Shown here: in pieces, positions 8,200 to 40,321 of the stretch
How the letters are laid out: every line of letters begins with the position of its first letter
Numbering within the stretch: the first letter of the stretch is position 1
Assembly (NCBI GenBank): GCA_028819545.1
Contig: JAPPLG010000003.1
Span: forward strand, 1 to 43,248
Length of the DNA: 43,248 bases
From: Bdellovibrionales bacterium
GTDB taxonomy: Bacteria > Bdellovibrionota > Bdellovibrionia > Bdellovibrionales > UBA1609
Direction of reading: 5' to 3'
Position numbers and translations under genes: made by a program
The notes under the pieces: model-generated
What the model saw: only the letters and a program-made list of their open reading frames with translations
Database searches by the model: none
Told to the model about the DNA's origin: nothing

Positions 8200-11100
8200 T
8201 TAATCTGCCTCATCAAGAAAATTTGGATAATAAGGGTAGATTTCTTGTTCTTGTGATGAGGAAGTCGACGTCCTATTCCTTACATTAGATAAATTAATCC
8301 CTCCAGATAAAGCAAAGTTGGAAGAACTAAAAAACCTCAAGTTGCCCAAAGGCAACACTGTAAATAACAAATCTTTTTGATCTTCCAGCTCTTCTGCATT
8401 GGCGGATGTTGTGTCCCAACCCCTTTCATAAAACAAATAATCTGAAATGACTTCAGTATCAAAAGCTAACGCATTTATATTGCGATCGATATACCTTTGA
8501 GGATATTTTGTTGCCAAAACTTCCCAGGGTATTCCCATATCGCTAGATATAAGATGCCCTTCAAACAACCCTGTAAAGATAGCCTCCAATTCAGGAGCTG
8601 ATCTATAATCAGATCCTCTAAAATAATGCCCGATAAATCTTTCAAGTATAAGGCGACATTTTTGAAGAGAGGTCTGATTATTAAAGCAGTGGTTATAAAC
8701 CACGGCAGATAAAAACATAAATTCCCCAACAAAACGCCGGTCTTCAGAATACATCAACATCAGTTTTGGAATAACATCTATAAGCACCTGCCGATTGGAT
8801 TGAATCCATTCCTTGAACAAGAGCTTATCATTTGCAAAAGACGTAAAAGCAGATTGAAACAGCATATTCATTGCCGTATGAATGCCCTCAACCCCTTTCC
8901 TGGTGGATAAATAATTTTCTATATTATGCACTTCGCGAATGAGCATTCTATTATGAAGACGCTCTTCTGAAAAATTTAATCGATCTGCCCAAAGAGAATT
9001 TAGCGGAGCGGGAAGTTCAACATAAGGAGACCCTAAAACAAAATTACCCAAGCCAAAAGACTTCATACGGTTTAGCATCTCCCCTTCTGCTATGAATAGT
9101 CTGTGTAATTTCCCTTTCTTCAAAGGATCTTTTGAACAAGCTTCAAATAACCACTGTTCAAAGTCCTGACGGTACTGAAACTCTTCCTCAGTAGATTGAA
9201 AAGTTCCATCCTGCACCCATTTCCTGTAGGCTCCATTAGCCTCAGACTCTTCCTCCAATTTCATACGTGTATTGCTATTAAGGTTATTGTAAAAATTTGT
9301 TAAAACTTGCGGCCCGTCACAACCTACAAACCCAAAAAGCTGTAATACACTGGACTGCAAAACTGTATTGGCAGATATAGCCTGTGTATGAAATTCTTCG
9401 GGAGATAACCCTGCTATGGATATAGCCCTTTCATACCCATCTAAAAGCCCCAAAGCCAGCCAATAAGCATACATAAAATAAAAACGGCCTAAGCGCGTAT
9501 TTTGGAATTGACTCAACAAAGCTCCAAGATAGTTGTAAAGATGGGTGCCAAAACCTGCCTCAAAATTTTCAGAAGTATATATATCCTCCCCTTCAAAGAA
9601 TTTTCTATAAGGCTTTGTCCACAACAAGCGAGTTGAATTTTTAGCCAACTCACTAAGCACCTGGTTTCCAAAGCTGTCTACAGCACTGTCAGAGCCAGGA
9701 AAAACTAAAAAATCATTTAACTCAAAATAATAACGAGTGGATAAGGCAGGAAACTCCTGATACATATTGTATTGTATAACCTTATCCATTAATAAATGAG
9801 AGGTTCTTGCAGTTAACACATGCACTGACTCAGAAATCTCTGTTCTTCTTTCACTGATAGAATCATTGGAAATCCCTCCGGATATTGCATAAGCCACCGA
9901 ATATAAATTATTAAACAAATTTAACAGATGTTTTTCTTCTGAGAAATTTTGATAGAAATCCCGAACACCATAACGATCCGTTCTGGATTGAGGCCATCCT
10001 CTATATTGGTCTGTAAGCTGTTGAGGCTGTATTAACTCATCTCTAAAAAGAGGATCAGATGTTCCAGCACGAATATAAGGAAACCTAAAAAGTTTTCGTG
10101 CTGAATCTTCAGGGTCCAACTCACCTAATCGACGTTCCTTAAATGAATCAAAGAAATCTGTTACAGGGTAAAATACTCCACGAGTTATACGAGCAAGTAA
10201 TAATCGCTCCAAACCTTTTTGGAGATCTATTTCATTCATCATAGATAGAGATGGAGTGCTGTTCTCCATAGGGACAGGAAAGAAATTCCCCGTCAAAGTT
10301 AAAGCCATAAAGGCCGCAGTCCTAATGACGTAAGTTCCCTTATAAGGAAGACCGCTGGCTTCTTTATATGGAGCTGACTGAGGAAGCAACTGTGGATAAA
10401 GGAAATGACCAATTTCTTTTTTCAAGGAATAATTTGGATAATGCTCCAACATGTACCTTGCCACTGCAGGGTGAGCTTGATCTTGATCTGCATCCTGCCA
10501 ACAAGATAAAATAGGATAAACCTGCTGTTCCGCCAAGGAAGATTCTGCAGAAATAATTTTTGACAATTCCAGTAATACACGAACATTTTCCGGCTTCCAC
10601 CTTTTTTGTGTATAAGCAGACCAATCTTTTTCCAGAACACAATAACGATTAGGAAGAAAAGCTAAATAAGTCAATGTATGGTAAATCAAATTCCTCGCCT
10701 TATAAAAACTAAACAATTCTTTTTCCTGCTTATTTTTCACCTTAATGGATGAGGTAAATTTAGAAAATAATTCACTCCTTTGGTCTTCATTTAAGTATTC
10801 AATAGTTGTATTAAAGTAACTTCTGGAAAATTGGTCTAAATGCCTTCTCCAATCCTGATAAATCACCATTAAATTCCAAAATCTTCTAAAAATAGAAGAG
10901 TAAAATGCATCATCTGACATAAAGCGATCTTGATTGTAAAAATACTGATCCATAACACGAAACAAACTTCTGATCTCATTCATAGCAATTTCATGGGGTT
11001 TAGAACCAGAATCATGTCTTAAACAATAAGCTGAACTGCCCACATCCCAATCCGAACATCTCCTGAATTGATTTCTGCCTTTTTCATTATGAAAATTAAT

Positions 11101-13797
11101 GATATTAAAAACCATTTGGTTTGAACTCCGAGAGAAAACATCTAAATTGGAGTCAGAAGCCTCCGGCTCATCCAAAGCTCCATCATACAAAACTTGCACA
11201 CCCCCAACATCATAAGCTCCAGGAGCCCACTGCCTTCCACTTGAGGCACTTAAATAATCCATACACGAAGAAGCCTGATCATTTGAAAATCTGTCATCTA
11301 CACGAGCGATCTCACCCTTTTCATTTTCATAGGTTAAATAAGGTACGAGATAACTAAGGCGATAATTAGTATCATCCTTATAGGAATAATCAGCACTGGC
11401 TTTATGATTATGCCTTAAACTAAAAATCGCGTGACCTATTTCATGCACCGTCACCCCTAAGCCAAAAATAGGATAAACCTTTTGAACACAGCGGCGCACA
11501 GAGGACTCAAAAGCCCCCCTATTTGACAGAGGGTTTTCAATATCATGGCATATAATTCTGAAATTTCGATCTAATTCAGAATTATGGCTGTCAAACAAGA
11601 ACTTATCCTCTAAACCCCAAGCTCTTACATTATTTTGAATCTGCTCAAGGCTGTCATGCTCCATGAAACGCCCCTGTCTTAGAGCGTATGTAATTTTAAA
11701 TTCTTTTAACCAATCCCTAAGCTCCGGCGAAGGTGTTTGAATATTAGAAAAAAATTCTGAAAAAGGTTTTTTGAATGCATCCTGCACCTGAGACAGACTG
11801 GTAAAATAAGAAGAGACTTCGTTTAAAGAGCGAGGAGATTCTACAACAGGTATATTTGAAAACTGCTGGATATGATTTTTAAATAATAAATACTGCAAGT
11901 TTTCCACTGAATAAGATAAAGAGCTTGTTTGTTGAATTGGATAAACAAAGGACTTCCCTATTGCAGAAGGATACTTTACATTAGTGCTCCTCAACGGATT
12001 GAGTAATTGATGTGCTTCATAGGCATAATCAATCACCAATTTTTCTACAAATTCCTGAGTATCCGGAATAATGACATTAGAAACAGTTGAAATAAGCTCA
12101 CCTGTTTCATCATCTGCATAAAATTGAGCTATACCGGAATATGATTTATTTCGTTCATTAGTAATATTCAGAATATGATAACGAATATCTCCAATATTGA
12201 CGTTCTTTGTCTCATCCAGATAAAGCCTCCATGAGACCTTCGCCTTAGCTAAAGCCTGATTCCATAAGGAAACTGCCTCCCTTCCGATATTTCTGATTAA
12301 ATCATCCTGAGGAGTACTATTAGAAAAGTGTATAGGCACAAGTCCTTTTTCATTAGGATGCACTCTCATCAAGCGGATTCGATCTTCATAATCCGCCCGA
12401 AAGGAATGTAGTGGATCTGAAAAAATTGTATTGTACTGAAGTCTAAAAAATTCAAATCTGGGATCTGTTTTTGCAATAGTTTTAGGCTGATATGTAGATT
12501 TTTTTGAAGAGTCTTTTTTAAAGAAAGAAAACCGATACTCTATTGCATCAGAAGTAACAATAACAAAATCAAAATAATCAGGAGCAAAACGAACTTCTTT
12601 AACAGTCACAGAAGTATTTGCAGAAAGCATTTCTCCTGCAGACAGTGAGTCTTCCAGATATCTACGGGCCACTGCACGAACCCGTTTCCTATGAAAATCA
12701 TCCACCTGAGAAAAGTCCAAAGAAACATATCTTCTCTCCTCCCAGGATAAGTGACTGCTTACAGGTTCTGATAAATCCTCATCAACAGATACATCTGTTA
12801 AAGTATTTCTATAATCCAGATGTTTCACGGGAATGGACAACACTTCCGCTTCTACTGGATAATCCAATTGATCACCTTGTTTTTTATAATACTCATTAAT
12901 AGCTTTCAAGCGGCCTGATTCAAATTGAAAAGAAACTTTTTGCCCTGGTGTGTAGCTGGAATAACTATCTCCGGAGCGCACCACACCAGAGCCTGCCTGC
13001 CTATACCGACTTAATCGTTTTGCGGAAACTACACTCACCCCCGAATACCACACACCTTCAAAATAAGTTTTAGGCAAGATGTCCGGTTTTTCCTGGTACT
13101 GGAAAGAAGAAAAACCGGAACTTAATTCAGGTATGTAAATCTCCTTTGCACCTGTGCGAATCTTCTGAGGGATTCCCACATGACTTTGAAAACTTTCCAG
13201 GGAATCTTCATTAGGAAAAAAATCCAAAATATGAGTTTCTTTATTATCCACATTCATCATATTTCGAACCTGACCCTGCTGAATCGAATACCCTCCTATA
13301 GGGAGTGCATAACGGTCATTCTGAATACGAATAGCTTGAGCAAGTCTCTGATAGGGAAGCTCATGCAAGGTTCCTGACATTAATACCCGCAAGTAAGAAC
13401 CTGTTATCTGAAAATACACCTCATAGGAGGTATGCGGCCGAGCCACCAACCGTATTTCTCTTTGAGTCAGCACGGTTTGACACAGTGAACTGCCTCTAAC
13501 TTCATACTCCACAACAGGTAAATTATTAATCACCGGAAAAGTCGAAGTAGAATGAGACGGAAAAACAACAGAATCCGACTTATTACTTTCTAAAACAATT
13601 TTCTGCGCCTGACTGACAGCACTGCCTGATTCTATAGGCCCCTGTGTTTTAATATAGCATTTTGTTTTTATAATCTGATCAATAGGAAAAATTTGATCTT
13701 GTTTGACATCATTAGGCTGAAACTGGTCAGGCAACACCTCTACACAAGATGTGCATAAAAGAATAAAGCCAAGACTTAAAAAAAACCTTAATATCAA
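8200..13797 (-). CDS. Very large metzincin-type zinc metalloprotease lipoprotein
   Basis: Predicted surface or periplasmic lipoprotein of about 1865 residues. A short signal peptide (ILRFFLSLGFILLCTSC) ends in a lipobox-like Cys. In the middle, near 11400-11450, HEIGHAIFSLRHNHKAS gives a HExxH zinc site with a further His. About 60 residues later SSCMDYLS is a good Met-turn. The combination matches the DUF4953/DUF5117 zinc protease group (HEVGHTLGLRHNFKAS-like), with one extra residue between the second and third His. The rest, with a long alpha-helical C-terminal half, is not recognisable. I chose TTG at 13797 (AGGCGG upstream, proper signal peptide); the frame is open to a TTG at 13845. It follows the outer-membrane protein gene closely, suggesting one transcript. 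Confidence 0.8.
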   Translation of the reverse strand: MILRFFLSLGFILLCTSCVEVLPDQFQPNDVKQDQIFPIDQIIKTKCYIKTQGPIESGSAVSQAQKIVLESNKSDSVVFPSHSTSTFPVINNLPVVEYEVRGSSLCQTVLTQREIRLVARPHTSYEVYFQITGSYLRVLMSGTLHELPYQRLAQAIRIQNDRYALPIGGYSIQQGQVRNMMNVDNKETHILDFFPNEDSLESFQSHVGIPQKIRTGAKEIYIPELSSGFSSFQYQEKPDILPKTYFEGVWYSGVSVVSAKRLSRYRQAGSGVVRSGDSYSSYTPGQKVSFQFESGRLKAINEYYKKQGDQLDYPVEAEVLSIPVKHLDYRNTLTDVSVDEDLSEPVSSHLSWEERRYVSLDFSQVDDFHRKRVRAVARRYLEDSLSAGEMLSANTSVTVKEVRFAPDYFDFVIVTSDAIEYRFSFFKKDSSKKSTYQPKTIAKTDPRFEFFRLQYNTIFSDPLHSFRADYEDRIRLMRVHPNEKGLVPIHFSNSTPQDDLIRNIGREAVSLWNQALAKAKVSWRLYLDETKNVNIGDIRYHILNITNERNKSYSGIAQFYADDETGELISTVSNVIIPDTQEFVEKLVIDYAYEAHQLLNPLRSTNVKYPSAIGKSFVYPIQQTSSLSYSVENLQYLLFKNHIQQFSNIPVVESPRSLNEVSSYFTSLSQVQDAFKKPFSEFFSNIQTPSPELRDWLKEFKITYALRQGRFMEHDSLEQIQNNVRAWGLEDKFLFDSHNSELDRNFRIICHDIENPLSNRGAFESSVRRCVQKVYPIFGLGVTVHEIGHAIFSLRHNHKASADYSYKDDTNYRLSYLVPYLTYENEKGEIARVDDRFSNDQASSCMDYLSASSGRQWAPGAYDVGGVQVLYDGALDEPEASDSNLDVFSRSSNQMVFNIINFHNEKGRNQFRRCSDWDVGSSAYCLRHDSGSKPHEIAMNEIRSLFRVMDQYFYNQDRFMSDDAFYSSIFRRFWNLMVIYQDWRRHLDQFSRSYFNTTIEYLNEDQRSELFSKFTSSIKVKNKQEKELFSFYKARNLIYHTLTYLAFLPNRYCVLEKDWSAYTQKRWKPENVRVLLELSKIISAESSLAEQQVYPILSCWQDADQDQAHPAVARYMLEHYPNYSLKKEIGHFLYPQLLPQSAPYKEASGLPYKGTYVIRTAAFMALTLTGNFFPVPMENSTPSLSMMNEIDLQKGLERLLLARITRGVFYPVTDFFDSFKERRLGELDPEDSARKLFRFPYIRAGTSDPLFRDELIQPQQLTDQYRGWPQSRTDRYGVRDFYQNFSEEKHLLNLFNNLYSVAYAISGGISNDSISERRTEISESVHVLTARTSHLLMDKVIQYNMYQEFPALSTRYYFELNDFLVFPGSDSAVDSFGNQVLSELAKNSTRLLWTKPYRKFFEGEDIYTSENFEAGFGTHLYNYLGALLSQFQNTRLGRFYFMYAYWLALGLLDGYERAISIAGLSPEEFHTQAISANTVLQSSVLQLFGFVGCDGPQVLTNFYNNLNSNTRMKLEEESEANGAYRKWVQDGTFQSTEEEFQYRQDFEQWLFEACSKDPLKKGKLHRLFIAEGEMLNRMKSFGLGNFVLGSPYVELPAPLNSLWADRLNFSEERLHNRMLIREVHNIENYLSTRKGVEGIHTAMNMLFQSAFTSFANDKLLFKEWIQSNRQVLIDVIPKLMLMYSEDRRFVGEFMFLSAVVYNHCFNNQTSLQKCRLILERFIGHYFRGSDYRSAPELEAIFTGLFEGHLISSDMGIPWEVLATKYPQRYIDRNINALAFDTEVISDYLFYERGWDTTSANAEELEDQKDLLFTVLPLGNLRFFSSSNFALSGGINLSNVRNRTSTSSSQEQEIYPYYPNFLDEAD

Positions 13798-13860
13798 CTT
13801 ACCGCCTGCCAAAAACTCTCTCTCATAACAGTTTTCTACAATCAACCTAATTTTATTGCG

Positions 13861-27554: not shown

Positions 27555-29936
27555 TTATTCCCTTAAAGCAGAGGGATGAATGAGCTTTACAGAAAAGCCA
27601 GTTCTCTCCCCTTTCAAACAATGAGAAGGTATCATCTTTCTCTCTAAATTTGGACCTAAATAAGGATCATCCGAACCATTAAAAGTTAACTTCACATCTT
27701 TATCGTCCAATTCACAATTTAAAGGAGGAGGAGGTCTAGGAGGTCTGTTGTCGTACATATCCTGGGAATGAACATAAAAGTCACTGAGATCTGGAGTCCA
27801 GGACGTTAAGAGCTGATTAATACTATTGAGTTTATAACTATTAAAGACAGAGGATATTCCATGTGAACTCGCGGGGCTTACACGAGGCTGTTCTTGAGCA
27901 TAAATGATTTGTCTTTCAATATAATTTAAACGAAAAGGCGGATCATGCCCTCTCAATGCGGGACTATTTGTATAAACAGCAGAGGGTGGAATATTAGTGG
28001 TATTCTCATTTCTAAAATGACCCAAATCTGCAGGCACATAATCCGGGCCAAAAGCTTTCTTTAATCTGGGGTAAAGAGTCACCATATAATTAGGTAAAAT
28101 TGTATAATAAGTGCGATCAAATTGATCCGGAGCAATAGCCATTTCTTCATAAACTCTCATTGTTTTATTAAAAATTTCATTGTGATTCAAATTTACAACT
28201 ACTGTACTAGCAGTAGGATCAGGAACATGATCATGTTGTAAAACCACAGCATCCCTATAATAATCCATATTATTAGGTAAATCACTATAATTATTAAAGG
28301 TTCGTCCTTGGGCTTTTGATGTTGTACGCATAATATTGGAAGAACTGCCATGAATAGATTTTCGACCTTCAGTAAATAAAAAGTTCCAGGCCCATTGCAC
28401 TCTCTCATCTGTTAAACCCAATGGGTCTCCAGGAGAGCGTGAATAATTAGGAAAAAGCATAAAGAATTCTGGACCAGCTCTTGGAATACGTGGGTCTTGA
28501 GTCTTAGGATCGGAAGGACCAAAGCTAGCCCCGAAGGGCTTGGCATAAGCTACAGCCTTCAGAGTCATTGGAACAATTCCAGGAGGAGTGAAGAAAGGAA
28601 AAAACAATTGCCCTTTATAGGGAATTTCCACCTCTACCCTAACACCCAAGTGAGCCTTTGGGCTTTGTTTTTTATAAAAACCCAACACTCTTTCTTGTGG
28701 ATTCCTCCAAATACTTTTTAAAATTTCACACCAGGTTATGGGCTCATAATCCGGCTGATAAGTTACAATCCTATTCATAGTTGCTGTCATAACTTCAGAA
28801 TTTGGTTTGAAATGAAGGTTAGAATCACTTGGATCACATTGAAAAATAGACTGAACAGTGGTTACACAAAAATTAGTATCGCCATCTGTTAAAGAACTAC
28901 TATCGAAAGCATTTCTATGATTGTCAGTATTTTGAACATAAGAAGGAATAGGAGCAATTTCATCCCACTGAAAAAAAGTATTAAATGATGTTGAGGACCC
29001 GATAGGTCTAGGATCTACTCCTCCTGCTTGCGACTGTACTATAGTAAACCTTAATTTTGGATCAGGAGGATCAGGAGAGTTAAAACCTCGATAGTTTACA
29101 TAAGTTAGGTTTTTCCAGATTGTATTTCTTACACCTTCCCCAATAGGTTTATTGTCAATATCTTGACCATTTTGCAGTAAAGGAAATAAACGGTTATCAA
29201 TAAATAATTTTCTTTCTCTTTGATCCTTCAAAAAAGATAAATACATAGACGTCGCTACAAGCCAATTCTGATACCCAACATCAGAACAGTTTTTGCTCAA
29301 CTGTTTTCTCAAACTACGAACTCTCTCGTTTCCTGCTAAAACAGAGAGAGTTGGCAAAATACCAGTTGTTGGTGTAACAGGGGGTAAAGAGCGCGCACTG
29401 GATGCTAGTTTATAGTTTTGGCAAATATGAGTATTATCATTATACCATTGTGTATGAAATAAAGGGTGTATAGTACAAACAGCGTAAGGACATTTCCACC
29501 GTCTTGCCGTATCTGCTAAATCGCACTCTGCATTAAGACAGCCGCTTCCTGCATGAGGACATAGAGACCTGTCTGTCACAGAAGATTTATTTAAAATATT
29601 CATCACAAACCTACCTCCTCCAGCACTACCGGACACCCCAGGAATAGTCGGCTCTACAAAGCCTCCGCTGTTTCCCAAGACTAAATATCTCCAGGCAAAC
29701 AGTTTGTAGGACTGCCTCATTTGATAATTGATATGAGCCATGGCATCCATGACTTCAGCCTGCTTTTGAGCCGCATAGATAGCCGCTAGATCCACTGAAT
29801 TTTGTAAATTGATTTTATCATGCACAACCATGCCGACATTAATCACCATAGCCAAAAAGAAAAAAATTACCGGAAAAACCAGAACACCAAAAACAATCAG
29901 CTGTCCTCTTTTTCCTTTCATCAGATCATTCTTCAT
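27555..29936 (-). CDS. TadG-like pilus-assembly protein, very large
   Basis: The N-terminal 60 residues show the TadE/TadG pattern: a basic start (MKNDLMKGKRG), one long hydrophobic helix (QLIVFGVLVFPVIFFFLAMV), then a helix with NLQNSVDLAAIYAAQKQAE, where TadG-type proteins have QxAaDaAALAGA. The remaining 730 or so residues would be outside the inner membrane and contain Cys pairs (LCPHAGSGCLNAECDLAD) and Pro-rich loops; no von Willebrand domain is obvious. TadG proteins are minor pilus or assembly components of the Tad system. It is the last gene of the Tad-hit region, after murU. Confidence 0.8.
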   Translation of the reverse strand: MKNDLMKGKRGQLIVFGVLVFPVIFFFLAMVINVGMVVHDKINLQNSVDLAAIYAAQKQAEVMDAMAHINYQMRQSYKLFAWRYLVLGNSGGFVEPTIPGVSGSAGGGRFVMNILNKSSVTDRSLCPHAGSGCLNAECDLADTARRWKCPYAVCTIHPLFHTQWYNDNTHICQNYKLASSARSLPPVTPTTGILPTLSVLAGNERVRSLRKQLSKNCSDVGYQNWLVATSMYLSFLKDQRERKLFIDNRLFPLLQNGQDIDNKPIGEGVRNTIWKNLTYVNYRGFNSPDPPDPKLRFTIVQSQAGGVDPRPIGSSTSFNTFFQWDEIAPIPSYVQNTDNHRNAFDSSSLTDGDTNFCVTTVQSIFQCDPSDSNLHFKPNSEVMTATMNRIVTYQPDYEPITWCEILKSIWRNPQERVLGFYKKQSPKAHLGVRVEVEIPYKGQLFFPFFTPPGIVPMTLKAVAYAKPFGASFGPSDPKTQDPRIPRAGPEFFMLFPNYSRSPGDPLGLTDERVQWAWNFLFTEGRKSIHGSSSNIMRTTSKAQGRTFNNYSDLPNNMDYYRDAVVLQHDHVPDPTASTVVVNLNHNEIFNKTMRVYEEMAIAPDQFDRTYYTILPNYMVTLYPRLKKAFGPDYVPADLGHFRNENTTNIPPSAVYTNSPALRGHDPPFRLNYIERQIIYAQEQPRVSPASSHGISSVFNSYKLNSINQLLTSWTPDLSDFYVHSQDMYDNRPPRPPPPLNCELDDKDVKLTFNGSDDPYLGPNLERKMIPSHCLKGERTGFSVKLIHPSALRE

Positions 29937-32400: not shown

Positions 32401-32581
32401 TCCAGCCTTTTAAAAATAGAAAATAATATAGGAAAATCAGTAACTTATGTTTGAATACCAACCTTATATGAATGGGGTTTTAAAGGGGCTGATGAAGGAA
32501 AATTTGCCTATCTATTAGACAACAAAGGACAAAATTTGTCCTCAGTGAAGTAAGTTCATGTATGTAAGATCAGAGTTCAGT

Positions 32582-32890
32582 TTACCGAATACCAGTGTCA
32601 GATCTTTTCTCAGAAGGCTCTTCAATTCCAATAGCTGACTGTAAAACATATAATAAATTGAAAGCACTGGGATTAGTGTCCATATCCCTTTTGTCTACAC
32701 GAACTGTGTGTTCATCACAATAAGCACAGCGCCCGGGGCCCTCTGCCTCTGTTTCCTTATCCTGCATATTACGCAAACCTTCATTAAAAGCTGAAGCGGC
32801 CATAATGCCAAAAACAAAATCTTCATCCTCTTCAGCAAAAACCGGAACAGACAGTATTATTAAAGTTAAAGTGAGAATTATGATTTTCAT
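32582..32890 (-). CDS. Small secreted protein, hit-locus (Bd0108-like by position) paralogue 2
   Basis: 102 residues with a signal peptide (MKIIILTLTLIILSVPVFA), an acidic start (EEDEDFVFG), then the core TEAEGPGRCAYCDEHT, DTNPSAFNLL and QSA, shared with the neighbour at 32975. The two Cys (CAYC) could form a redox or metal site. It follows AAGGAAGG. The gene is the second copy of a tandem duplication that also carried along the 3' end of the YD-repeat gene. In Bdellovibrio bacteriovorus a secreted protein of about 100 residues (Bd0108) follows the YD-repeat gene bd0109 beside the type IVb pilus genes. Homology to Bd0108 is inferred from position, size and export, not from sequence comparison. 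Confidence 0.75.
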   Translation of the reverse strand: MKIIILTLTLIILSVPVFAEEDEDFVFGIMAASAFNEGLRNMQDKETEAEGPGRCAYCDEHTVRVDKRDMDTNPSAFNLLYVLQSAIGIEEPSEKRSDTGIR

Positions 32891-33305
32891 TATCCCTTCC
32901 TTAGATATTCATCTCTTGAACCACAGGGTAGCAATCTCCACCAGCCCATTAAACATAGACATCACTTAAAAAGTCTATCTTGTGCCTTCAGAAGATCTTC
33001 CCTTTACTTCTGGTTTTGCTTCTGCTTCTTCTTCAGCAGATTGAGCCAGATGCAGTAAAGTCAAAGCATTGGGATTTGTGTCATCTTCTCTATCTACATC
33101 AGCTGTATGTTCATCACAATAAGCACAGCGCCCGGGGCCCTCTGCCTCTGTAGCTTTATCATCCAAAATATTGGAAAAAACAGGAACCGTTGAAAAAATT
33201 AAAGTGAGAAGTATTATTTTCATCATTAACCTTCCTTAGATATTCATCTCTTGAGCCACAGGAGTAATGATCTCCATCAGTCCATTAAACATAGACATCA
33301 CTTGA
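32891..33305 (-). repeat. Tandem duplication joint: relic of the YD-repeat gene 3' end between the two small genes
   Basis: Positions 32897-32967 match 33235-33305, the last 20 or so codons of the YD-repeat gene plus its stop and the ribosome site AAGGAAGG. In the relic, a single base is missing (ACCCTG against ACTCCTG), so it no longer reads in frame. This shows that the two small secreted genes arose by duplication of a unit of about 335 bases. Confidence 0.85.
32975..33226 (-). CDS. Small secreted protein, hit-locus (Bd0108-like by position) paralogue 1
   Basis: 83 residues: a signal peptide (MMKIILLTLIFSTVPVFS), then NILDDKATEAEGPGRCAYCD, the DTNPNALTLLHLAQSA block and a Glu/Lys-rich tail ending SSEGTR. 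It starts ten bases after the stop of the YD-repeat gene, with AAGGAAGG between, so it is surely co-transcribed with it. The core matches the paralogue at 32582; the N-terminal and C-terminal parts differ. The same caution about Bd0108 homology applies. Confidence 0.75.
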   Translation of the reverse strand: MMKIILLTLIFSTVPVFSNILDDKATEAEGPGRCAYCDEHTADVDREDDTNPNALTLLHLAQSAEEEAEAKPEVKGRSSEGTR

Positions 33306-34903
33306 CTCATTATAACAGGATCGTTGCTGTTTTTCCAACCTTTAGACATCCCTTTACTGTCATACTCAATCTCAATAGAACCTACACCTTTTTGAGTAAT
33401 TTTTTGAGGCTTATTCACCCGATCATCATAAGAGACCAAAATAATTTTACCAGATTGATCTTTCATTTGATCAATGCGGCCCTTCTCATCATGAGACAAA
33501 CTCACCCAGCGTCCATCAGAACGAGACACTCTTCTCATTAAGCAGGTTGATGGGTTGTATTGAATTTGTACTGTTTCTTGATTGACCACTTTTTTATTCG
33601 CCAACCTTTGAGTGCCGACAGACATGGGTTTTAAACATTTAGTATCGTATTTTGCAAAAGAAGTTTTTTGGCTTCGATTCACCTTTTCTTTCAAAAGCCC
33701 TTTAAAAGATCCTGCAGAATAATATTTGTACTGTGTTCTCACTCCATTTTGAGTTAAATTGGACACCCTTCTAAATTTAGGATGATAAGTCACATCACGA
33801 ACATCTCCATTTACTTTTTGTCTTGCCCGATGAAGATACATCACTCCATCCTCACCTCTTTTATTCCAAAATTCGTAACGGCTGACATTGGTTACCACTT
33901 TGCCGCATTTCTTCTCCACATCAGTCCAATAATGATTAGGGTTTTTCGGGTTTGTCTTATATTTATAAGTCTCAATACATTTTCTTTGATTTTCAAAGCT
34001 GGTCACCCAATCTTTCTTTTTATTATAAGTTAAATTTTCCACAACAGGATCTTTTCTGGTGCCCCCAGGATATATAGTTTGAGTCAAATTATGAAGATCA
34101 TCATAAGAGTGTTTGTGTTCACCATCCTGATTCACCACTCGAATTAAATTTTCATCTTTAATCTTATAAGAGGCTAAAGTTTTCCCCATCCCTTTGATAG
34201 AAGCAATCTGCCCTTGCTCATAGCCAAAGACAAGTCTTCGACCTTTATTATCCACAATGTATTCAGGCTTTTCTTTTTTCCATACAATTTTAATATAATT
34301 ACCGGCTTTATCTGAAATCTGAATAAGACGGCCGCTGTTTTTAGCAAAGAACTGTTGTACTCCATTGGACAATGTTCTTTTAAACCAGCCTTTTTTATTA
34401 AAAACAATAGAGTCATTGCTTCTGCCTTCAGCAAAATGCACAACACCAGGACTGACCTGTCCGCTGACTTTATAAGCTTTCAAAAACTCATTTCTTAAAA
34501 TATGACTTTTAGTTAACTTTTGTGTTAATTGTGCATAATAAGAACTGGATAGTTTTTTATTTTGTTTTTTAACAGCTTGAATAATTTGCTCAATTTGCAC
34601 GGACACATCCTGCCTGGCATTTTGGCTTAAAAACAAAATTTCCTGCCCGCCTCCGCATTCTGTCAGTTGAATAGAGTTATCCGGCAATACACGCACTCTG
34701 GTTTCTATATTTGAGCACCACCCCATACCAAAAAGACCTCTATATAAAGATCTGGAGTTATAGGTTCTTTCCATGGTTAGAGGAAAAACAGCTCCTTTTA
34801 AATCAAAATCAACAAATGTCTTTTTATAATTTCCACTTTTTGTATCTACAAGCGACCAAGCAGAAAAAGTGAAACCAATCACCAAAAACAATAATACCTT
34901 CAT
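33236..34903 (-). CDS. Secreted YD/RHS-repeat protein, Bd0109-like (hit locus)
   Basis: 555 residues with a signal peptide (MKVLLFLVIGFTFSAWS). The N-terminal DUF6531-type RHS start is clear: VDTKSGNYKKTFVDFDLKGA, then ERTYNSRS and GLFGMGWCSN. YD-type repeats follow (YDDLHNLTQTIYPGG, YKYYSAGS, SLSHDEKGRIDQ, SYDDR). It lacks the large barrel and C-terminal toxin domain of true Rhs effectors. It starts 30 bases after the TadB-like gene with GGGAGGAG upstream. In B. bacteriovorus the protein of this place, Bd0109, is exported, has YD repeats and binds Bd0108, and the pair affects pilus extrusion and prey-independent growth. Equivalence here is inferred from architecture and position. Confidence 0.82.
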   Translation of the reverse strand: MKVLLFLVIGFTFSAWSLVDTKSGNYKKTFVDFDLKGAVFPLTMERTYNSRSLYRGLFGMGWCSNIETRVRVLPDNSIQLTECGGGQEILFLSQNARQDVSVQIEQIIQAVKKQNKKLSSSYYAQLTQKLTKSHILRNEFLKAYKVSGQVSPGVVHFAEGRSNDSIVFNKKGWFKRTLSNGVQQFFAKNSGRLIQISDKAGNYIKIVWKKEKPEYIVDNKGRRLVFGYEQGQIASIKGMGKTLASYKIKDENLIRVVNQDGEHKHSYDDLHNLTQTIYPGGTRKDPVVENLTYNKKKDWVTSFENQRKCIETYKYKTNPKNPNHYWTDVEKKCGKVVTNVSRYEFWNKRGEDGVMYLHRARQKVNGDVRDVTYHPKFRRVSNLTQNGVRTQYKYYSAGSFKGLLKEKVNRSQKTSFAKYDTKCLKPMSVGTQRLANKKVVNQETVQIQYNPSTCLMRRVSRSDGRWVSLSHDEKGRIDQMKDQSGKIILVSYDDRVNKPQKITQKGVGSIEIEYDSKGMSKGWKNSNDPVIMSQVMSMFNGLMEIITPVAQEMNI

Positions 34904-34933
34904 GTCTCCTCCCTATTTTTCAAATTTCAGTGA

Positions 34934-35812
34934 CTATACGTCTATTGTAGCCACTTTTCTCATCATTTTTCCACCAATAATCACCAAAACAGCTATAATT
35001 ACCAAACAAACCCACCCTAGGGCTGTGGTAAATAATACAACCGCATATGAACGATTGATAAAATAAAGCAAGCCGATAATAACTACAGGAACCGCAGAAA
35101 TAATCCTTGCCTGCATCATTCCCTGAGCTGTTAAAGCTCTAATTTTACTCTCCACTTTTTGTCTGGATCGGATAGTTTCTGCAATCACTGCAAATGTTTC
35201 TGCCAGATTTCCCCCAGTTTCTTTCAAAATATTTACCGAAGTCACCAGCATTATCACATCCGGCATAGGGACCCGCTCGGCCATTTCCCTCATAGCTTCT
35301 TCCACACTCATTCCCAATTTAATTTTATTTAATACTAAAGTGAATTCACTGCTTAAAGGCCCTTTCATACCCTCAATCACCCTTTCCATTGATTGTGTCA
35401 CACTGAGACCCACCTTCATTCCATTCGCCATTAAGACCATTCCCTCCAACATTTGCTCCACAACAGTATAACAGTAACGAGTCCATAGAGAGCGCATCAC
35501 AGAACGAACTCCAACCCAAGTCATAAAAAAGGAAACAATTCCAATACTCAAGCCCACTAAAAAATGAGGAAGAGTAATCACCACCGGAATCAAAGCCATA
35601 GCCAAACTTAAAAGCCATAGATACATCACTGTTTTTTTATGATCTTTTTGAATTCTCATTTTTTCTATAATTTCAATAATTTCTTTTTGAGAAGACGTGG
35701 TTTTGTCGTAGGCAAAACGTAAAAAAGAAGGAAGCCATTTATAACTCACAAAAAAGACACAAACGCCAAACGCCAAGTACAATAACAAATCATATTGAAC
35801 CAAAAAACTCAT
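34934..35812 (-). CDS. tadB: TadB/TadC-like inner-membrane platform protein (T2SSF domain)
   Basis: Inner-membrane platform of the Tad pilus. 292 residues with about four membrane segments (near 10-25, 65-105 and the last 50). The cytoplasmic T2SSF domain has the pattern LEGMVLMANGMKVGLSVTQS, then GPLSSEFTLVLNKIKLGMSVEEAM and ETGGNLAETF. ATG overlaps the stop of the CpaE-CpaF fusion (ATGA). Only one such gene is here; the usual TadB-TadC pair is not seen in the window. The next gene is the YD-repeat protein. Confidence 0.88.
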   Translation of the reverse strand: MSFLVQYDLLLYLAFGVCVFFVSYKWLPSFLRFAYDKTTSSQKEIIEIIEKMRIQKDHKKTVMYLWLLSLAMALIPVVITLPHFLVGLSIGIVSFFMTWVGVRSVMRSLWTRYCYTVVEQMLEGMVLMANGMKVGLSVTQSMERVIEGMKGPLSSEFTLVLNKIKLGMSVEEAMREMAERVPMPDVIMLVTSVNILKETGGNLAETFAVIAETIRSRQKVESKIRALTAQGMMQARIISAVPVVIIGLLYFINRSYAVVLFTTALGWVCLVIIAVLVIIGGKMMRKVATIDV

Positions 35813-38037
35813 GAGACCGCCTTTTTGGTTTTGGAAGGAAGAGGACGAATAACTCTGGAAGGCCCCCCAAGCTTCGGCTTCATAGAGCCGCTCACAGGAG
35901 TTTTCTTAACACCAGAGCTGATAGACTGTTGAGTGGTAAATAAATCCCGTGGAATATGAATACCTCTTTGTTCAAAACGTTCAATAAAACTTGGAATACG
36001 CCCCATAGCCTGAAACTGACCAATAATTTTTCTGTTTTTATCAAAGCCTGACTCTTTAAATCGGAAAATTTCCTGCAAAGTCACGACATCCCCCTGCATC
36101 CCCGCCACTTCTGTAATACTTTTTACTTTACGGCTTCCATCACTGAGCCGGCTGATTTGCACAATAAGATTCACAGCACCGGCAATCTGTTCCCGGATAG
36201 CTTTAGCCGGCAAGTCCATCCCCGCCATTAAACATAAAGTTTCCAAACGAGCGACAGCTTCTCTCGGGTTATTTGCATGCACTGTCGTCATAGAACCGTC
36301 ATGGCCTGTATTCATTGCAGAAAGCATATCCAAAGCCGCTCCATCACGGCATTCCCCCACCACGATACGATCCGGGCGCATACGAAGAGAGTTTCGAATT
36401 AAGTCGCGGATACTTATAGCTCCTGTACCTTCCATATTTGCAGGTCTTGTTTCCAAACGCACCACATGTGTTTGTTTCAACTGTAGCTCTGCCGCATCTT
36501 CAACGGTAATAATTCTCTCTCTCTCAGGAATAAAAGCAGAAAGCACATTAAGCAAAGTTGTCTTACCTGAACCTGTACCTCCTGAAATGATCACATTTAA
36601 ACCCTGCTCGACACAAATTTTCAAAAAGTCACCCATAGCCTCCGTCATAGAACCAAATCTTTTCACCAAATCCTGAATGACAATTCTTTCACTTGGAAAT
36701 TTCCTAATGGTGACCGCCGGCCCGTCAATAGATAAGGGTTCAATCACAGCATTGACACGACTGCCGTCAGCCAAGCGGGCATCCACATACGGAGTTTTTT
36801 CATCAATACGCCGTCCTAAAGGAGTGACGATTCTTTCAATGACATTTTTCAAATGCATATTGGAAGTAAATGTGACAGGAGAAAGCTGAATTTTTCCACT
36901 TTTTTCACAATAAATTTGAGAAGCCCCATTGACCATAATTTCTGTTACAGATCGATCTTCCAAAAGTTCTTCCAAAGCCCCTAGTCCGACGGCTTCATCC
37001 AACACATGTTTAATAATTTGACTTCTTTCCTGCCTCGCCAAATGCTTTGCTTTTTCATCCACCAAGCGAGTCACAATACGAGAAGCTTTCATTCTAATCT
37101 CTTCTGTGGCTTTTTTGGTTTTAGCTTTTGTTAAGTCTTTGTTCAAATCCATTTCCTGAATGAGTTCCGAATGCACTTGCAGTCTTAAAAGAGTGTTAGA
37201 ATCTAAATTTTCATTTGAAGAAAAATCTTCTTTCTGAGTACTCGAAGATTTCTTTACAGGGCTCATTTGAGAACGGGACAACTGTTTATTTTTCTGTAAA
37301 ATACCTCCTGTCAACTGCCGGATGATTTGATGGTAAGAGCGGGCCATTGCTGTGTTGGAGTGAGATAAAACAAAAGGTCTTGAAGAAGACAGGGCCTGAA
37401 GAGACACAGCCTCGTCATTTGGAACAAAATTTAAAATAGGGAGTTTTAAGGCCTGTTGAATGGTCGAAGCCTGCACAGCTGTTGATGTATGTTTGTTGAC
37501 AATAATCTGCATTAATTGGGTTGGTAGAGTCGCCACCATCAATTCATTTAAAATTCTTCTGGTTTGATTAATCACCAAAATCTCAGGTGTCACAAGCACC
37601 AATAAAGCGCTGACTCTGTTTAAAACTTCCACCTGAAGCTCTCCAACCTCACAGCCTAGATCCACAAAAATATATTTGTAATTTTGCTCCAGGCTCATCA
37701 GTTGTTGAGAAAACAAACGAGGATCTCCGGAAAGACTTTGCTCAGGGCTTTTCACCGCCGCCAAGTAAGCTAAACCGGAGTTGTGTTGAGATAAAATACT
37801 CTTAAGCGAAGTTTGGGAAATAACCCCTTTATAGCCAATAAATTCAGACACTGTCTTTAAAGGCTTAAGCCCTACAATAATATTTTGATCTCCACAGCTT
37901 TTATTATCCAAGTCCATGAGCAGACAAGGAGCTCGAAGTTCTTTTTGAGCGGCTAAAGCCAAGTTGGCAGTGAAAACACTCTTGCCTACTCCGCCTTTTC
38001 CTCCAATAACACCAATAACATAATTCATAGAACTCAT
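35809..38037 (-). CDS. cpaF: Fused CpaE (TadZ) - CpaF (TadA) Tad pilus ATPase
   Basis: A single frame of about 742 residues joins two proteins that are usually separate. The N-terminal 240 or so residues are a ParA/MinD-like CpaE/TadZ domain with the deviant Walker A GGKGGVGKS and LLMDLDNKSCGDQN. A Ser/Lys-rich linker (about 265-310) follows. The rest is the CpaF/TadA secretion ATPase: IMVNGASQIYCEKSG, GGTGSGKTTLLNVLSAF (Walker A), TVEDAAELQL, RPDRIVVGECRDGAALDML (Walker B) and the His box GHDGSMTTVHAN. The start at 38037 follows the cpaC stop by one base with GAAGG upstream; the frame is open to 38118 inside cpaC. Confidence 0.93.
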   Translation of the reverse strand: MSSMNYVIGVIGGKGGVGKSVFTANLALAAQKELRAPCLLMDLDNKSCGDQNIIVGLKPLKTVSEFIGYKGVISQTSLKSILSQHNSGLAYLAAVKSPEQSLSGDPRLFSQQLMSLEQNYKYIFVDLGCEVGELQVEVLNRVSALLVLVTPEILVINQTRRILNELMVATLPTQLMQIIVNKHTSTAVQASTIQQALKLPILNFVPNDEAVSLQALSSSRPFVLSHSNTAMARSYHQIIRQLTGGILQKNKQLSRSQMSPVKKSSSTQKEDFSSNENLDSNTLLRLQVHSELIQEMDLNKDLTKAKTKKATEEIRMKASRIVTRLVDEKAKHLARQERSQIIKHVLDEAVGLGALEELLEDRSVTEIMVNGASQIYCEKSGKIQLSPVTFTSNMHLKNVIERIVTPLGRRIDEKTPYVDARLADGSRVNAVIEPLSIDGPAVTIRKFPSERIVIQDLVKRFGSMTEAMGDFLKICVEQGLNVIISGGTGSGKTTLLNVLSAFIPERERIITVEDAAELQLKQTHVVRLETRPANMEGTGAISIRDLIRNSLRMRPDRIVVGECRDGAALDMLSAMNTGHDGSMTTVHANNPREAVARLETLCLMAGMDLPAKAIREQIAGAVNLIVQISRLSDGSRKVKSITEVAGMQGDVVTLQEIFRFKESGFDKNRKIIGQFQAMGRIPSFIERFEQRGIHIPRDLFTTQQSISSGVKKTPVSGSMKPKLGGPSRVIRPLPSKTKKAVS

Positions 38038-38038
38038 C

Positions 38039-39481
38039 TTACTGACCTTCAATTCTGAATTTTCTTTTAATTTCTTCAACATCTGTGCTGGCTGAACTCT
38101 TGATGAAAGGTGTAACAAAAACTACAAATTGATTTCTATCTCTTTTAAAATTCTTAGAAGACAACAGATTAAACACAGGATCTCCCCCTTCTATACTTCC
38201 CCCTGGTTCACGATTATAATCCCTTGTATTGGAGTGAGATATAATTCCTCCAATAGCCGCACTTAAACCGCTTCGCACATACACTAAAGTGTTTAGTGCT
38301 TTTTTAGAAATGATAGGCCCTGCAGAAGCTGTGCCCACAACATTGGAAACTGTAAAGCTTACTTCCAAACGCACGCCGTCTTTTCTGGCACCAACAATGG
38401 TGGGCCTGATGGAAAGATCTACTCCTGCAGTGGCTTTTTGCACCTGCATTCCTGCCGCACCAGCTAAAACTCCATAGGGAATTTCTCTATTGGAGCTGAC
38501 CTTACCCTGCTCTCCCTCCTCCACAATTAAATTAGAGCTGTGTAGAATACGGGCAAATCCAAACTCTTTAGCCCAATTCAATTTAGGAAGTAAATTGGAA
38601 ATAGTTCCTGTAATAACTTTTCCAATTTTTTCCCCAATCGTATAATCTGCTGAAGCCATTCCTGGGGCCCATTGAAATCGAAACTGATCCGAATAACTAT
38701 TCCCCAACTCCACATAATGAATGACCATATGAACTAGTTTATTTTGCGCTTTCTTTTTTGATGGAGGGGGTTGAACTTTAATCAAATTAATAATCACATT
38801 TTTAACATTTCGATCACGAACCACTCCACTTTGCACAGCCGGATCTGTAACCACACCAGGGGCATAAAGCTGGGCAATGATATTGGCATTTTCACGTTCT
38901 TCTTCTGTTGAAACTGTTCCTCTTAAAATAAATTTTTCGTTTGCGGCTTTAACCGTAATATTGGGGTTTCCAATTTCCCTTTCAATAAACTGAGCCACTT
39001 TATTTTGTGCAGAAGCACTGAGAGTGACCAGAGAAGTGGCTTTATCTCCATATTCTTTCACCACATTGTAAATACGCTTCATATCACGGGGAACAAAGAT
39101 TTCTCCATCCACCACCACCTTATTGTTGATAATAGAAACAGTGATTCCATTAATTTCCCCCAATAAAGATGTGATCTCATGAGCTACACGGGTGAGATCT
39201 GTTTCCCGAACAGAGATCGTATATTTTTTTAAAATATTTCTGCCCTCTTTGATAATCAAAGAGCCCACACCTTTTCTAATGGGGGTAAATCTTAAAGTAT
39301 GTTTTTTCTTATCGTGAAAGAGACGTGTTCTTCTGGTATAGGTTCCTTCAAACTTCAGTGTTTTTCCTCTCCACGCAGGGTCCAAAGAAAAATCAGAGTC
39401 TAAACCTACAGAAAGAGGAATAGACTCTTCAATCGACCAAACCGGCAGACAAATGACAAGTAAGAGAAAAATCCATTTCAA
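38039..39481 (-). CDS. cpaC: Tad pilus outer-membrane secretin
   Basis: CpaC/RcpA secretin, the outer-membrane pore of the Tad pilus. A signal peptide (MKWIFLLLVICLPVWS) leads into the N-terminal domain and two BON-like segments (NNKVVVDGEIFVP, EKFILRGTVSTEEE). The secretin core ends with IPYGVLAG, VDLSIRPTIVGARKDGVRLE and GGDPVFNLLSSKNFKRDRN, then FVVFVTPFI, the usual last strand. 480 residues. It lies 12 bases after cpaB and one base before the ATPase fusion. Confidence 0.93.
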   Translation of the reverse strand: MKWIFLLLVICLPVWSIEESIPLSVGLDSDFSLDPAWRGKTLKFEGTYTRRTRLFHDKKKHTLRFTPIRKGVGSLIIKEGRNILKKYTISVRETDLTRVAHEITSLLGEINGITVSIINNKVVVDGEIFVPRDMKRIYNVVKEYGDKATSLVTLSASAQNKVAQFIEREIGNPNITVKAANEKFILRGTVSTEEERENANIIAQLYAPGVVTDPAVQSGVVRDRNVKNVIINLIKVQPPPSKKKAQNKLVHMVIHYVELGNSYSDQFRFQWAPGMASADYTIGEKIGKVITGTISNLLPKLNWAKEFGFARILHSSNLIVEEGEQGKVSSNREIPYGVLAGAAGMQVQKATAGVDLSIRPTIVGARKDGVRLEVSFTVSNVVGTASAGPIISKKALNTLVYVRSGLSAAIGGIISHSNTRDYNREPGGSIEGGDPVFNLLSSKNFKRDRNQFVVFVTPFIKSSASTDVEEIKRKFRIEGQ

Positions 39482-39493
39482 AGAAACACCGCC

Positions 39494-40321
39494 TTACTTA
39501 ACTTTCACTCTGGTTTGAGTTGTTTTTTTAGTGGAAGAAGAAACTGTTCTTAATCCCAGAATACTTTCAATGGTTGTCGTTTGAGAAACCTGCCTGGAAA
39601 CCAAGCTGTCATTGGGATGTCTCAAAGATAAAAAGAGAGAACCCGGACTTGTGGATAAAATATACACTAACTTTTGAATATCATCAGGCTCCGCTTCAAT
39701 TGTAATGGAAGAAAAATCAGCATTGGATCGAATATTTTTAATAAAATCACTGGATCCAACCTGTTCGTGCAAACGAGGCAGTTCATTGACAACATTGAGG
39801 CCTGTAGCCAAAATAACCACATTTTGCAAAATTGTTTTTACATGGCGGGTGTTTCCTCCGCGGCTTCGAACATCAAGAGCGGCTAAAATATCCACGCGGT
39901 CTCCCGGTTTAATCAACTTGGCCACTCCTCTCATTTCATCAATAGGGATAGTTAAAGCACGACTTTTAGGGGTCACTTGCAGAGAAAGCCCTGTAACAGG
40001 CCCGGGTTTAATAATTTTATTATCTAAAATTTGTTCTCCTGATTGAATAGGAGCCAAAGCCACAAGACCTGTGGCATCTTCAATATTGCCAATATGTCCG
40101 GGCTGTGCAAAGTCCATAGGCACTTCTGTCAGCTCCAGCATGGATTCATCCAAAGTTTCCATCTCGTTAATATCTCGAGTTGAAACAACCAAGGTGGTTT
40201 TAGCCCCAAAACGCTTGGTTAAGGCCTCACTTTTCTCCTGCGTATAGCTGTAAACCAGCATTACTGCAAAAATGGCCAGACCTATACTTAGCCAAAGAAC
40301 TAGAGTTTCATTTTTATTCAT
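39494..40321 (-). CDS. cpaB: Tad pilus assembly protein CpaB/RcpC
   Basis: Periplasmic Tad subunit anchored by one N-terminal helix (LVLWLSIGLAIFAVMLVYSY). The SAF domain follows: VVSTRDINEMETLDESML, then APIQSGEQIL. The RcpC part has ALTIPIDEMRGVAKLIKPGD and VDILAAL. 275 residues. A hairpin (40331-40377) in the leader contains its ribosome site AGGGGG. It opens the cpaB-cpaC-cpaEF-tadB run. Confidence 0.92.
   Translation of the reverse strand: MNKNETLVLWLSIGLAIFAVMLVYSYTQEKSEALTKRFGAKTTLVVSTRDINEMETLDESMLELTEVPMDFAQPGHIGNIEDATGLVALAPIQSGEQILDNKIIKPGPVTGLSLQVTPKSRALTIPIDEMRGVAKLIKPGDRVDILAALDVRSRGGNTRHVKTILQNVVILATGLNVVNELPRLHEQVGSSDFIKNIRSNADFSSITIEAEPDDIQKLVYILSTSPGSLFLSLRHPNDSLVSRQVSQTTTIESILGLRTVSSSTKKTTQTRVKVK

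Follow-up and report, generated by a model that had tools for sequence, protein, structure and literature searches.

A hit locus with a duplicated bd0108-type gene behind the Tad pilus operon of a Bdellovibrionales bacterium

The hit locus and related systems

It has long been asked how Bdellovibrio chooses between a predatory and an axenic life; the mutations of most host-independent mutants lie in bd0108. In strain HD100, bd0108 and bd0109 lie behind the Tad (type IVb) pilus operon and form the host-interaction (hit) locus, mutation of which alters pilus extrusion and permits prey-independent growth (PMC3818213). Cells without bd0108 make almost no pili, and an internal deletion makes the pili longer (PMC3818213, PMC4267844). 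Nuclear magnetic resonance (NMR) shows Bd0108 to be intrinsically disordered, with low affinity for Bd0109 (PMC4267844); the weak binding (N ~3) goes through residues 24-66 (PMC3818213, PMC4267844). Described here is a locus of this kind in a 43,248-nucleotide stretch of DNA, "the window" (GenBank assembly GCA_028819545.1, contig JAPPLG010000003.1, positions 1 to 43,248), from a Bdellovibrionales bacterium. Between positions 32,582 and 35,812 a TadB-like gene is followed by a gene for a secreted YD-repeat protein and two tandem genes for small secreted proteins. The locus is a genuine hit locus in which the switch gene has been duplicated, and it represents a new lineage; most of the interest lies in two observations made around it, that a reported small RNA (sRNA) of HD100 is probably a gene and that small proteins of the same locus have matched tails.

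The window locus resembles that of HD100 in gene order, in its full-length Bd0109 orthologue, in the adjacent secreted CxxC small protein and in predicted disorder. It differs from it in several respects: i) it has two Bd0108-type copies, which arose by local duplication and lie on one apparent transcript; ii) it lacks the ancestral second small gene, which in Bdellovibrio lies behind a terminator, within the reported sRNA; and iii) its genome is small, belongs to another family and yielded no flagellin gene. Earlier work described arrays of short secreted genes next to bd0109 homologues in 20 activated-sludge bins of Bdellovibrionales (PMC10469934) and noted a pair of small neighbours of the Bd0109 homologue in Bacteriovorax marinus (BMS_0182-0184 of strain SJ; PMC4267844). 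These arrays, like the window, have two to three small signal-peptide genes beside the Bd0109 homologue; little or no homology was reported for them, and neither matched tails nor a mechanism of duplication nor a connection with the HD100 sRNA was described. The YD protein also shares its YD-repeat beta-sheet spiral with the Rhs cores of type VI secretion systems, the TcC component of ABC toxins and the teneurins. Unlike these shells it is about half as long, has neither autoprotease nor toxin tip, carries a Sec signal peptide and has its partners encoded separately.

The YD gene and its duplicated neighbour

The 555-residue YD protein (33236-34903, minus strand; DUF6531 E=2.8e-13, RHS_repeat E=5e-6) lies directly after the TadB-like gene, is secreted and lacks a toxin domain, as the earlier note on this DNA had claimed. 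It aligns with Bd0109 over its full length at 37-38% identity with E ~1e-108 (37% across residues 1-553), far beyond what generic RHS repeats give; the HD100 bd0108/bd0109 sequence used was verified through published primers and through C56/C59 (PMC3818213, PMC4267844). Matches were found in 59 of 59 relatives, mostly full length, and a search with a YD profile was positive for 342 of the phylum's 369 genomes (228 of the 235 good ones). AlphaFold gives a confident beta-spiral with a predicted local distance difference test score (pLDDT) of ~90, and Foldseek matches this half-shell to Rhs cores, TcC and teneurin YD shells with E down to 5e-21; sequence comparison also links it to Rhs cores and teneurins. 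Neither a Pfam scan nor Foldseek found a toxin or protease domain, autoprotease included. Four cysteines, C63, C83, C309 and C333, vary little or not at all across the family. Two records of metagenome-assembled genomes labelled Streptomyces griseus and Alphaproteobacteria (L236, L286) carry a YD gene of the Bdellovibrionota type; they are probably mislabelled or mixed bins.

Behind the YD gene, on the same strand, stand two small genes. Copy 1 (32975-33226) starts 9 bases past the YD stop codon and encodes an 83-residue protein, the probable Bd0108 orthologue, with a signal peptide, a CAYC motif and the tail SSEGTR. Copy 2 (32582-32890) encodes 102 residues with the same CAYC motif and the tail SDTGIR. 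The pair thus stands where the earlier note had placed two tandem secreted proteins with a common TEAEGPGRCAYC core. Both are of the ~100-residue class of Sec-secreted proteins found directly downstream of YD, with CAYC as their CxxC. They are 64% identical and share the core TEAEGPGRCAYCDEHT, the DNA of which is 98% identical across ~49 nucleotides; copy 2 has a ~20-residue acidic insertion ahead of the core. Traits of the Bd0108 type are their position, the signal peptide, the TEA and CxxC core, and their score with a hidden Markov model (HMM) made from the mature parts of Bd0108 of the genus Bdellovibrio, window sequences excluded: copy 1 ranked first (E=8e-4) and copy 2 second (E=0.15) among 199 open reading frames (ORFs) of the window. 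No Pfam or NCBIfam family was found to cover the small proteins, and weak matches such as PCEMA1 look like chance.

The origin of the pair is recorded in the DNA between the copies. The 85-bp spacer repeats, in degraded form, the final ~21 YD codons plus the ribosome-binding site, and is out of frame through the loss of one base (32893-32967, minus strand). Direct repeats D2 and D3, 94% and 97% identical, relate it to about 33228-33303. Since the spacer repeats the YD 3' end, the pair arose by tandem duplication of a unit consisting of YD 3' end, ribosome-binding site and small gene. This was not very recent, because over 77 codons the copies differ by a synonymous divergence (dS) of ~1.15 and a nonsynonymous divergence (dN) of ~0.29. 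With dN/dS ~0.25, both copies look to be under constraint. The GC-rich core GGGCCCCGGGCGC (window 32690-32750 and 33090-33150) is conspicuous in these AT-rich genes, being near-identical between copies with saturated flanks; its identity may reflect local gene conversion or constraint at the nucleotide level.

The Tad genes upstream are all on the minus strand. They encode: a CpaB/RcpC-like protein (39494-40321; Pfam RcpC E=1.2e-18, SAF), the counterpart of bd0113; a CpaC/RcpA secretin (38039-39481; Secretin E=6e-19, BON), the counterpart of bd0112; a 769-residue fusion of a TadZ-like (ParA/MinD) protein with the TadA ATPase (35809-38118; T2SSE E=3e-61, CbiA E=9e-13), for which HD100 carries a 739-residue counterpart at the same place; and a 292-residue TadB-like inner-membrane protein (34934-35812; T2SSF E=2.5e-17), ordered as in HD100. 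The single-strand order CpaB-CpaC-TadZA-TadB-YD-small matches HD100 and places the locus at the 3' end of the Tad/type IVb pilus operon; the identity of the genes and their synteny are thus established. A terminator-like hairpin, found by consensus scan only, lies 3' of copy 2 (32525-32543, minus strand), and the scan found none between the copies. Co-transcription of both copies with the YD and Tad genes is thereby suggested. An Rfam scan of the whole window gave no match.

The source genome (1.45 Mb, 95% complete, encoding PilT-type ATPases) falls within Bdellovibrionota, in Bdellovibrionales, the same order as HD100, and in a family that contains UBA1609; we infer that UBA1609 is its GTDB family. 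The lineage, the position behind the Tad genes and the full-length Bd0109 orthologue together support the hit-locus interpretation, which had been put forward as a candidate.

Small secreted genes and their tails across the phylum

Small secreted genes were surveyed in 155 distinct YD loci followed by 1 kb or more of sequence, a small ORF with signal peptide being sought within 350 bp. It was present in 138 of them, with a median gap of 15.5 bp and a median length of 91 residues. The same filter gave 3/149 upstream, 9/155 on the opposite strand and ~7/155 in shuffled sequence (2-6%); against these low counts the small gene behind YD is well above chance. At least five loci missed by the filter still hold a small ORF (L023, the frameshifted L113, L160, L164 and L177). 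A second small secreted ORF occurs in 87 of the 138 loci, and a third in some Bdellovibrio. Arrays of small secreted proteins beside the YD gene are thus the rule across the phylum, and the description of Bd0108 as unique to Bdellovibrio (PMC3818213), which the earlier note mentioned, is outdated. Read-through of a stop codon between the YD and small genes was considered and set aside, the start frames (55:33:35) showing only a mild excess in loci that are not independent. Two YD orthologues of one family (f5; L069, L077) have no small secreted gene behind them.

The first protein of an array usually has two or four mature cysteines, the second exactly one (53 of 57 non-redundant loci). Profile comparison of first with second proteins gives P=5e-7 over the core C-x(8-14)-[LF]-x-[DN]-x-T, and the Bd0108 HMM at E<1 finds 17 second and 20 first proteins, as against 10 in a three-fold larger shuffled set. 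Judged from these similarities, first and second proteins are likely of common ancestry. A frameshift splits bd0108 in L113 (probably B. bacteriovorus strain W), putting its signal-peptide half in one frame and its CPECIARMKHTRLGDDTTYRP...KTGTR half in another; this may be a natural mutation of the host-independence type or a sequencing error. A published paper described the strain W homologue as lacking the C-terminal region.

The last three to six residues of first and second proteins are alike within a locus and unlike between loci, for example TDSVE/EQSVE, GTQQ/ATQQ, VKGTR/VRGTR and SGTD/SGRD. For the last three, the mean BLOSUM score is 2.18 against -0.14 in permuted pairs (p=5e-5; 57 loci with YD <80% identical), and 3.52 against -0.11 in the more divergent set (p=5e-5; 21 loci with YD <55% identical). 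Segments upstream of the tail match weakly or not at all. Within-locus tail matching is thereby established as an average effect, which holds for each of the two class groups (p=0.0001 and 0.006); many loci match poorly, HD100 included (GTGRQ, SKGWN). The window copies fit the pattern, both tails ending in G-x-R. Composition as the cause is excluded by permutation within proteins, which the effect survives, and by the control segments. Gene conversion was likewise rejected: at matched residues 36 codons are shared against 30.9 +/- 4.0 expected from codon usage, and the 15 nucleotides past the stop codon are unmatched. Because the matched residues use independent codons, the matching is at the level of protein. 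That the C-terminal part matters is seen from a host-independent mutant with a frameshift at bd0108 codon 73 (PMC11323537). In the HD100 NMR study, tail residues 89-101 were unaffected by Bd0109 (PMC4267844), so the tail, if it binds anything, likely has another partner. Tail matching thus offers a concrete target of three to six residues in an otherwise featureless protein, and directs attention away from Bd0109 to that other partner.

The second small gene of HD100 lies where a 261-nucleotide non-coding sRNA was reported beside bd0108 (96455-96716), the transcript of which rises in bd0108 mutants (PMC3818213). Entirely within it is a secreted ORF of 66 residues (96683-96483, minus strand; L109 2487-2684) with a signal peptide and a strong Shine-Dalgarno sequence, preceded by the terminator after bd0108. 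In close pairs (HD100/SSB218315, HD100/Tiberius, L040/L117) its dN is 0.00-0.02 at dS 0.35-0.47; since dN is far below dS, purifying selection acts on a protein. The "non-coding sRNA" is probably another Bd0108-type small secreted protein gene, and the published rise in bd0108 mutants would therefore be induction of a paralogue. The gene BD_RS00505, mentioned downstream of the locus (PMC5941755), is probably this ORF. The second small protein also has an unlinked paralogue, encoded at ~407 kb in HD100 (407445-407618; L291 2940-3119) and at similar places in other Bdellovibrio. This paralogue has a signal peptide, one cysteine, an LFANTNP-like core and a GxR tail, and adjoins a drug/metabolite transporter (DMT) gene, with a response regulator gene on its other side in some genomes. 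If it is true that nearly all relatives carry paralogues next to bd0108, one of them in the transcript raised by bd0108 loss, redundancy or feedback among switch proteins becomes directly testable in HD100.

Proposed working and competing explanations

The reading best supported by these results is that this UBA1609-family locus, with its Tad operon, Bd0109 orthologue and two duplicated, disordered, disulfide-capable Bd0108-type secreted proteins, works as in HD100; it is probably correct. Binding, disorder in solution and the effect on pili are known from HD100 only, and by analogy with it the YD shell would be located next to the pilus machinery, in either the periplasm or the envelope. Several flexible copies of the small protein would use their N-terminal half to bind the shell weakly, and through this binding pilus extrusion and the growth signal would be set. 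The two copies, with a common CAYC core and tail and unlike N-terminal arms, may compete for one YD shell with different affinity, and the short tail probably contacts a second partner. The earlier note had suggested two switch proteins differing in binding or in timing. A difference in binding is plausible, since most of what separates the copies falls in the N-terminal segment, which is the Bd0109-binding part in HD100; different timing found no support, there being no terminator between the copies and promoter-like matches being at chance level.

Several points weigh against this interpretation: i) the copies resemble Bd0108 only marginally (E=8e-4 and 0.15), and mostly in the core, so that homology would be argued largely through synteny; ii) divergence is uneven (core ~2%, flanks saturated), and gene conversion may distort dN/dS; iii) since the HD100 tail does not respond to Bd0109, any role of the tail needs another partner; iv) a flagellin gene was looked for in the source genome and not found; and v) AlphaFold models of read-through YD-small fusions, of the window and of HD100, give no confident contact, most of the small protein having pLDDT ~30-45. 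The last is uninformative rather than refuting, because NMR shows Bd0108 to be disordered and of low affinity. Copy 1 in the window model (pLDDT 30-45) is likewise disordered by prediction, and the HD100 model has a short helix at Bd0108 residues 57-67, the region where NMR saw helical propensity (PMC4267844).

A wider generalization is rather less likely than not: throughout the phylum, a single Rhs shell in the hit locus may be shared by several paralogous, disordered switch proteins encoded as an array, with tails that form a lineage-specific code read by another partner, and the HD100 sRNA may be the mRNA of a second switch protein. On a rival account copy 2 was left over from the tandem duplication, is neutral and is drifting to loss, with only one small protein functional. 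Its genus is represented by one genome, the close genera g13 and g14 are single-copy, and the N- and C-terminal parts of the copies have diverged strongly. Yet both frames, signal peptides, ribosome-binding sites, CAYC cores and G-x-R tails are intact, dN/dS is low and two-gene arrays are usual in the phylum, which makes neutral drift unlikely. A redox role, with disulfide exchange between CxxC and the conserved YD-shell cysteines, would fit the oxidised CxxC of HD100 Bd0108 (PMC4267844), the near-invariant YD cysteines and the regular cysteine counts of the first and second proteins; CC, Cx4C or no cysteine replaces CxxC in L025, L039 and the Tad-linked B. exovorus locus L068, among others, and the idea is quite unlikely to account for the family.

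The small proteins could also be Sec-exported precursors that release a species-specific C-terminal peptide signal, like the Bacillus Phr peptides, with the disordered body as pro-region. Hypervariable bodies and tails that are conserved yet lineage-variable, common to paralogues, encoded by independent codons and free of Bd0109 contact (PMC4267844) would all suit a released peptide. HD100 Bd0108, however, binds Bd0109 outside the tail and acts as a protein, a conserved cysteine pattern and TEA core would be superfluous in a mere pro-region, the processing and receptor have no known example, and the HD100 tails are poorly matched; such a precursor is very unlikely. Descent from a domesticated Rhs toxin/immunity-type module, the small proteins being former immunity proteins, is suggested by the Rhs cage fold of the shell and by fast-evolving small genes behind an Rhs gene. 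It is scarcely credible, being mostly refuted by the absence of toxin and protease domains. Export and disorder of the small proteins also speak against it, as do the link of the locus to the Tad genes and its presence in almost the whole phylum. The preferred reading remains that of a hit locus working as in HD100.

Elsewhere in the window, a 1881-residue ORF (8200-13845) has no Pfam match at 1e-5. A second Tad-related gene lies some kb from the operon (27555-29936) and encodes a 793-residue protein with an N-terminal TadE/G-like domain.

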